The notes beneath the pieces are model-generated. The model made no database searches, was not told where the DNA came from, and was given only the letters and a program-made list of their open reading frames with translations. A stretch of DNA of 64,000 nt, from the NCBI GenBank assembly GCA_029251085.1, contig JAQXDZ010000030.1, forward strand, positions 62,001 to 126,000, written 5' to 3'. Positions 21,891-22,710 of this stretch are shown here, piece by piece. Source of the DNA: Mariniblastus sp. Its GTDB lineage: Bacteria; Planctomycetota; Planctomycetia; Pirellulales; Pirellulaceae. Position numbers and translations under genes: made by a program. Numbering within the stretch: position 1 is the first letter of the stretch; the number at the start of each line of letters is the position of its first letter.

Positions 21891-21953
21891 TTCCGCTGCA
21901 CCTAATTGAAATGACTCGACGACAACTGACTCGACGATAAAACGCTGAAGTCA

Positions 21954-22601
21954 TTAATCCTTCTTACGCTTAGCAAAGGCTTGGCGAATTTCCTCAAGAC
22001 GCTGCTCGTCTGAAGTTGATGATGATTCAATCATCGTCACAAAGTGATCAACTTCAGCGGGCTGAACCGGACAGCCAATATTGCCCTCCGGACCAACGGA
22101 TGTAATCAGTTCTTTTCCGTCACCATCAAGAATCACCATCCAAGGCATACCGCCGGACCGATCCTTTTTCATCTCATCGAACATGACTTGTCCACCCTCC
22201 ATCTTGTCAGTCGCGATTGCAACGACCAAATAATTATCTTCGAACAAAGGACTGTTCTTCACGAGGAACTCCTCGAGTTTGTGACACCACCCTCACCAAT
22301 CCGCAGTAAAATGAACAAGAACCGCCTTGTTTTCGGCTTTTGCTGACTTCAACGCTGCACCCAAAACCTCGGCGGCCACCAAGGGCGTTTCTGCACTGTC
22401 TGTTTCTGTCAACTCTGCAGCGTTCTTCTCCAATTCGGGTGGCTTACTTAAGGGCTGCCGTTCCTGCTTTTCGAGTGCCACCTTCACTTTTTCATTTTGG
22501 GCCGTTTGCGCTTCTTTTTCTTTATTCGACAACTGCTCTCCATCGCACCCAAGAGCAACAGCAATCGTGAAAAGCAGGGCCGCACAGATTAACCTTCTCA
22601 T
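21954..22601 (-). CDS. Thioredoxin-like lipoprotein with in-frame TGA (probable selenoprotein, U-G-W-C)
   Basis: Two adjacent open frames in the same phase are joined by one TGA at 22293-22295. Read through, they give a single 215-residue protein. Residues 1-19 are a lipoprotein signal (MRRLICAALLF...ALGC lipobox). An acidic, helical linker follows, then a thioredoxin fold: VLVHFTADW-TGA-GWCHKLEEF, where family members have CGWC, and a cis-Pro loop GGMPWMVILDGDG. TGA therefore sits at residue 103, the catalytic N-terminal Cys of CxxC. A hairpin (CGAGG-AGTT-CCTCG) lies 20 bases after the TGA. Selenocysteine is the best explanation; a nonsense mutation is the alternative. It follows lptF/G by 109 bases on the same strand. 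Confidence 0.85.
22262..22275 (-). promoter_or_regulatory. Candidate bSECIS hairpin of the thioredoxin-like gene
   Basis: On the minus strand, nucleotides 21-34 counted from the T of the in-frame TGA form a perfect 5-bp stem (CGAGG/CCTCG) with an AGTT loop holding a G. Bacterial SECIS elements are stem-loops inside the coding region with the loop roughly 16-37 nucleotides past the UGA, which fits. Folding is by eye. Confidence 0.5.
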
Positions 22602-22710
22602 CGCAAACTCCTCTATCTGTAAATTCAATCCCGAAGCCAAAAGTCCTGGCAGTTGCCAATCCATCTTAAGCTAAATATTTGTTCGCTCAAAACTTTAACT
22701 GAATGAAAAT

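Follow-up and report, generated by a model that had tools for sequence, protein, structure and literature searches.

The window, that is, the whole stretch of 64,000 nucleotides from Mariniblastus sp. that was analyzed, carries on its minus strand, at 22601-21954, what is very probably a single gene for an exported thioredoxin-fold lipoprotein, in which SelB and Sec-tRNA(UCA), acting through an AGUU hairpin, would insert selenocysteine at residue 103 and thereby form the U-G-W-C redox site of a DsbH/DsbD-gamma-like reductase. Comparison with relatives points to one conserved gene with a TGA at the position of the catalytic Cys and a SECIS-type hairpin, in a genome with the full selenocysteine machinery, and the fold predicted for the product is that of a thioredoxin.

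The open reading frame starts with an ATG at 22601, ends with a TAA at 21956-21954 and codes for 215 amino acids, its sole interruption being an in-frame TGA at 22295-22293 which, when read as a residue, places U at position 103 in TADW-U-GWCHK. The original prediction, made from the letters of the sequence, was of two same-phase frames split by exactly one TGA at the first Cys of a CGWC motif, with the second Cys (C106) intact, that normal ORF calling would report as two fragments. This is what the sequence holds: under translation table 11 there are two ORFs in the same phase, at 22664-22293 and at 22262-21954. Across the window, a single TGA flanked on both sides by 60 codons or more was seen in 17 stretches, of which only the one in this gene has a U-x-x-C. 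Its features are the following.

21954-22601, minus strand: proposed selenoprotein gene, 215 aa, Sec at residue 103, TAA stop (sequence, orthologues and dN/dS)
22545-22601, minus strand: lipoprotein-type signal, residues 1-19 with Cys19 (read by eye)
22293-22295, minus strand: TGA, proposed selenocysteine codon, residue 103 (sequence and orthologues)
22284-22286, minus strand: codon of Cys106, the putative resolving Cys of the U-G-W-C site (sequence and alignment)
22262-22275, minus strand: SECIS-type hairpin CGAGG-AGTT-CCTCG (folding and comparison)
22071-22073, minus strand: codon of Cys177 in the GNIGCP loop, the third Cys found with Sec (sequence and alignment)
22107-22358, minus strand: Thioredoxin_7 and Thioredoxin_2 match, residues 82-165 (Pfam profiles)

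The N-terminus, as read by eye, has a charged start followed by a hydrophobic stretch and then Cys19, and the same arrangement is seen in those orthologues that keep their N-terminus. The usual lipoprotein motif has Leu, Val or Ile three residues before the lipidated Cys, and in the window protein this residue is Ala by the same reading. The signal suggests that the protein is exported and lipidated. The protein scored 38.4 bits with Pfam Thioredoxin_7 (PF13899) and 32.4 bits with Thioredoxin_2 (PF13098), the curated cut-off being 27 for both, and it was also above the cut-off of the Pfam Thioredoxin model. By Pfam, the gene has as its upstream neighbor an LptF/LptG-type permease encoded on the same strand. 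Beyond the gene there is an inositol monophosphatase, encoded on the opposite strand, as well as an acylphosphatase and a membrane protein of ABC-2 type, the last of which scored at its cut-off. The order of permease, monophosphatase and ABC-2 protein was the same in L071, L073 and L074, where the frames were recognized by their beginnings only.

Of 59 other relatives searched, 12 have an orthologue in which this codon, too, is TGA, the only internal one; these are 11 of the 27 in the genus and G031 of the same family. The identity of these orthologues to the window protein ranged from 94 to 46%, and it was 38% over the N-terminal part of the orthologue in G016, which is split across two contigs as L185 (N-terminal part) and L018 (C-terminal part). 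One relative in the genus, G025, has Cys at the Sec site of its orthologue L014, in the motif CTWC. A 34-base pattern made of the TGA and the hairpin occurred once per genome in 10 of 28 genomes of the genus, always inside the orthologue, and the reversed pattern used as a control had zero occurrences in the same 28 genomes. In 10 pairs of sequences the dN/dS was 0.04-0.21 on the 3' side of the TGA and 0.09-0.37 on the 5' side, which is much alike, though these ratios are rough because most dS values were near or above 1; in three distant pairs the downstream dS was saturated and gave no ratio. As judged by these ratios, purifying selection is acting on the part after the TGA.

When a profile of window-type proteins was run against 392 Planctomycetota genomes, 77 were matched at E 1e-10, and a match above 75 bits with one TGA inside it was present in 25 of the 392, the window genome included; the place of the TGA was read in all but six of these. 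We compared 138 loci (L003-L032 and L071-L178), from which 21 duplicates, 10 loci under 60 bits and the partial L018 and L020 were removed, leaving 105 distinct members; L185, the N-terminal part of the Sec form to which L018 belongs, stood outside these counts. The 105 domains were 36 of Sec type and 69 of Cys type. In 69 of the 105 (58/69 Cys forms and 11/36 Sec forms) the matched domain follows another, weaker thioredoxin domain. The short single-domain type comprises 12 Sec forms, the window protein among them, and in 10 further Sec forms the domain is preceded by 159 or more open residues to which the profile found no match. The best 80 of 169 confirmed matches gave 79 named loci, of which 75 were planctomycete, three were 'uncultured bacterium' and one, the Cys form L131, was from Hydrogenedentota; at E 0.001, 79 of 80 members matched Thioredoxin_7 and 79 of 80 matched the DsbH-type PF03190. 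On sequence grounds, the window protein is thus a member of a Planctomycetota-wide family that often has tandem domains. The original prediction had proposed looking for homologues with Cys or TGA at this position, and both kinds exist, TGA in the 12 relatives given above and Cys in L014 and in the 69 Cys-type domains.

The hairpin, at 22275-22262, has a 5-bp stem and a 4-nt loop, AGUU, with G at the second loop place. Counted from the T of the TGA, the stem begins at a distance of 20 bases, which leaves 17 bases between the TGA and the stem; a hairpin of 5 bp that starts 20 bases after the TGA and has a G in its loop had been noted from the start. Of the 36 Sec forms, 35 have a 5-bp stem at +20 to +33, counted from the T of the TGA, and in every one of these a G lies within the first two places of the loop; all 36 have G at the loop column. 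In shuffles of synonymous codons that keep the protein, the stem was expected in 4.5 of the 36 Sec forms and in 3.2 when a loop G was also required. The stem was found in only 3 of 69 Cys forms (0.8 expected by shuffles), which are L014, L129 and L140; the loops of L129 and L140 have no G, and the hairpin of L014 is possibly a leftover. Covariation in the 36 Sec forms is thin because the stem hardly varies: 98.2% of cells are paired, and a double change is seen at two pairs, once at each. The compensated changes are in L015 and L173, and L185 repeats the double change of L015. Sliding the pairing partner lowered the paired cells from 98.2% to 31-62%. The hairpin sits in the codons for LEEFL, and exact LEEFL was present in 29 of 36 Sec forms compared to 0 of 69 Cys forms, so that the need for the RNA seems to have fixed a motif in the protein.

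In the account of the bSECIS model in a 2026 review (PMC13188914), an apical loop of 3-9 nt is set on an upper stem of 4-16 bp, a G lies within the first two positions of the loop, with G or U usually following it, the distance from the UGA to the apical loop is 16-37 nt, and the MFE is at most -7.5 kcal/mol. By that account the window hairpin is within the limits for loop size, stem length, loop G and spacing, the distance from UGA to apical loop being 22 nt. The bSECIS check that had been suggested came out favorably for these four properties. The MFE was -6.1 and -6.8 kcal/mol for the hairpin alone and -10.8 kcal/mol over 44 bases from the UGA, and the limit given in the review is reached only with the flanking bases. 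Rfam, run over 21900-22700 of the window, gave only three weak snoRNA matches, all far under the gathering score.

The original prediction also called for a search of the genome for selA, selB, selD and a tRNA-Sec, the lack of sel genes being named as a refutation, and all four were found. In the window genome selA scored 592.8 bits, selB 367.1 bits in a frame of 644 aa and selD 255.5 bits in a frame of 738 aa, each above the curated cut-off, and the tRNA-Sec gene scored 67.4 bits across the full length of the model. ARAGORN assigned the anticodon UCA to this tRNA-Sec and to 16 of the 16 loci submitted. The tRNA-Sec and selB models also matched in 14 of 14 control genomes, mostly below cut-off (above it in 5 for tRNA-Sec and in 2 for selB), and for this reason the weight rests on the cut-offs and on the anticodon given by ARAGORN. 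We conclude that the window genome is equipped to decode selenocysteine. TGA is an ordinary stop codon as well, since it ends 10 of the 47 long, little-overlapping ORFs of the window. The selD frame of the window genome, which is longer than the 311-position family model, has no TGA, and one in-frame TGA lies within selD of many relatives, for example L067 (G057) and L070 (G021).

The test for SelA covered 55 of the 77 profile-matched Planctomycetota genomes. SelA was above cut-off in 21 of the 24 that have Sec-type domains compared to 16 of the 27 that have the Cys type only (p 0.031, descent ignored), and the three Sec-type genomes without it are drafts with completeness of 77, 82 and 91%. 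G130, G207, G339 and G401 were left out of this count because they had only weaker TGA-bearing matches; SelA was above cut-off in all four. Full machinery does not entail the Sec form: G025, with selB and tRNA-Sec, has Cys, and others, G001 and G005 for example, are without an orthologue.

The Sec forms also differ from the Cys forms at a third cysteine. Cys is present at the C177 column of GNIGCP in 33 of 36 Sec forms and in 8 of 69 Cys forms (Fisher p 2e-16, descent ignored), and in the remaining Cys forms this residue is mostly Phe (38) or Tyr (19). On the tree there are only 4 Sec/Cys changes and 6 third-Cys changes, with one pair on starred branches, so that the association rests on few events. 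In thioredoxins the loop equivalent to the GNIGCP loop sits close to the active site, and Cys177 may be a further resolving or relay thiol. A wider reading, which we put forward tentatively and would not be surprised to see fail, is that the family has a three-residue redox centre made of UxxC and the GNIGCP Cys, the third thiol being tied to selenium; that its members often are tandem, the first domain being of Cys type and the second of Sec type; that the insertion signal fixed LEEFL; and that the Cys lineages tend to lack both.

In the AlphaFold model the mean pLDDT is 94-98 in ten-residue blocks from 71 to 210. The predicted fold is that of a thioredoxin, with U103 just ahead of a helix at 104-115 and C177 between the last strand (164-167) and a helix at 181-194. 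Profile and fold searches matched a Xylella disulphide isomerase, DsbH, DsbD, PDI and thioredoxins. In the mechanism that we infer, SelB carrying Sec-tRNA(UCA) would bind the AGUU-loop hairpin just past the UGA and selenocysteine would be inserted at residue 103 to give the U-G-W-C redox site. Sec103 would then attack an oxidized substrate, perhaps a disulfide, a sulfenic acid or the like, and Cys106 would resolve Sec103, Cys177 possibly serving as the additional thiol. The likely role of the putatively lipidated protein, if it works in the reducing direction, would be that of a DsbH/DsbD-gamma-like reductase of extracytoplasmic proteins.

Could a nonsense mutation or a sequencing error have split an ordinary CGWC thioredoxin whose gene is now decaying? 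Standard ORF calling does return two fragments and Cys homologues do exist, but the same TGA is kept in the 12 other relatives, orthologues that are 76-94% identical keep both the TGA and an intact 3' part, dN/dS is low after the TGA and the hairpin is retained, which makes this explanation hardly credible. The view that a random nonsense change at this residue is improbable is borne out by the recurrence of the TGA at the same codon and by the excess of stems over the shuffles. Decay of the downstream part or another frame disruption in close relatives had been named as evidence to the contrary, and neither was found in the 11 TGA-bearing orthologues that were read nor in L185. Comparison by itself cannot name the residue that is inserted, and an ordinary tRNA or a changed code might read the UGA as, for example, Trp or Cys. 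We regard this as very improbable, because TGA ends ordinary ORFs of the window, tRNA-Sec(UCA), selA, selB and selD are all in the genome, the hairpin is nearly confined to TGA forms, and Cys is the alternative residue at the Sec site.

That selenocysteine is inserted and the main role is of peroxidase type, with Cys177 resolving, rather than that of a disulfide reductase, is unlikely, though to a much smaller degree. Many selenoproteins act on peroxides, and Cys177 accompanies Sec. Against a peroxidase stand the UxxC site with its CxxC homologues and the matches to disulphide isomerase, DsbH, DsbD and PDI, all of which indicate disulfide chemistry, and the association of Cys177 with Sec becomes powerless once descent is allowed for, there being so few Sec/Cys changes on the tree. 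The selenoprotein with a U-x-x-C thioredoxin site that was originally predicted is, in contrast to these alternatives, strongly supported by comparison, that is, by the sel genes, the conserved TGA, the hairpin and the purifying selection.

Other TGA-bearing thioredoxin-like proteins were observed in these genomes. The paralogue L180 (G024:C85:118300-119200) is a lipoprotein-like thioredoxin in which the TGA falls within a UGWC site (KWUGWCPRLDEF). It has a hairpin, GGACG-AGTT-CGTCC, the stem of which (GGACG/CGUCC in RNA) is wholly different from that of the window gene while the AGUU loop and the distance from the TGA are the same. L179 (G025:C1:2030300-2031200) is a thioredoxin with a lipoprotein-like signal and TGA in a WUGPC site, and its host is the genome whose window-family copy has Cys. 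L183 (G207:C61:2800-4400) and L184 (G339:C182:1700-3000) also have the TGA within a UGWC site (YTDWUGWCKVL), here in a thioredoxin-like domain after which come repeats that by eye look to be of TPR type. In L182 (G130:C74:90500-91500), a thioredoxin-like protein of the tandem type, both domains contain one in-frame TGA (QWULSC and PWUGAC), so that the protein may have two selenocysteines; neither TGA has a stem at the fixed position. At L177 and L186 (G168:C34) there is a second domain of Sec type that has neither the third Cys nor the usual hairpin, L177 being without one at the fixed place; in the predicted fold a stem-loop lies closer to the TGA, so that this domain may represent a separate gain of Sec.

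These results add a well-supported and widespread selenoprotein family to a phylum whose selenoproteins are little described in the literature searched, and they concern genes that ordinary ORF calling cuts in two. With Sec and Cys versions of a single domain, the family also forms a natural series that would allow experiments to separate the RNA signal, the motif imposed by it and the possible third thiol. In NCBIfam, all 16 families listed for the window protein at E up to 1, selenoprotein families included, were below their curated cut-offs. DsbH/DUF255 (PF03190, NF043050, 2ju5) shares a thioredoxin-like domain with the window protein, and 2ju5 is its third fold match, but the window protein scored 34.8 bits against a cut-off of 190 for NF043050 and 25.5 against 27 for PF03190. 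The Rhodanese/DsbD fusion-like selenoprotein TsoB (NF045694) is likewise a family of selenoproteins and resembles the window protein over a thioredoxin stretch (E 5.1e-8), whereas the window protein reached 31.5 bits compared to 805 and the Sec motif listed for TsoB in the 2026 review (PMC13188914) is UxxxxU. The Trx7/PDZ domain (seleno)protein (NF041199) has by its name a Thioredoxin_7-type domain and matched weakly (E 0.0079), but its motif as listed in that review is CxxU and the window protein scored 15.1 bits against 300. The best solved match both by profile (9.9e-18) and by fold (3.3e-6) was the Xylella fastidiosa disulphide isomerase 3fk8, which differs in being a Cys form (GANWCTDC) with 22% identity, the alignment stopping before the GNIGCP loop.

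No published description recognized as the window family was met with in the literature searched, which covered PMC4807772, a report of selenoproteins from planctomycetes of Porphyra, apart from its supplementary selenoprotein table; that table could already include a member. Nor was an entry recognizable as this family seen among the prokaryotic selenoprotein families in the parts of the 2026 review that were compared (PMC13188914). The nearest classes are the Sec-containing thiol:disulfide interchange protein (PF13098, UxxC) in a table of that review and the 'Trx-like 2' (cd02953) selenoproteins tabulated in the GOS survey (PMC2398784). Like both, as these sources describe them, the window protein has UxxC in a thioredoxin fold, and it passes PF13098; it is set apart from the class descriptions in being of a single-domain lipoprotein type, with 69 of 105 relatives tandem. 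As broad classes, these two could include the window family. With these nearest survey classes compared by description only, the window protein and its relatives appear to be a new family of a known kind, the UxxC thioredoxin-fold selenoproteins.
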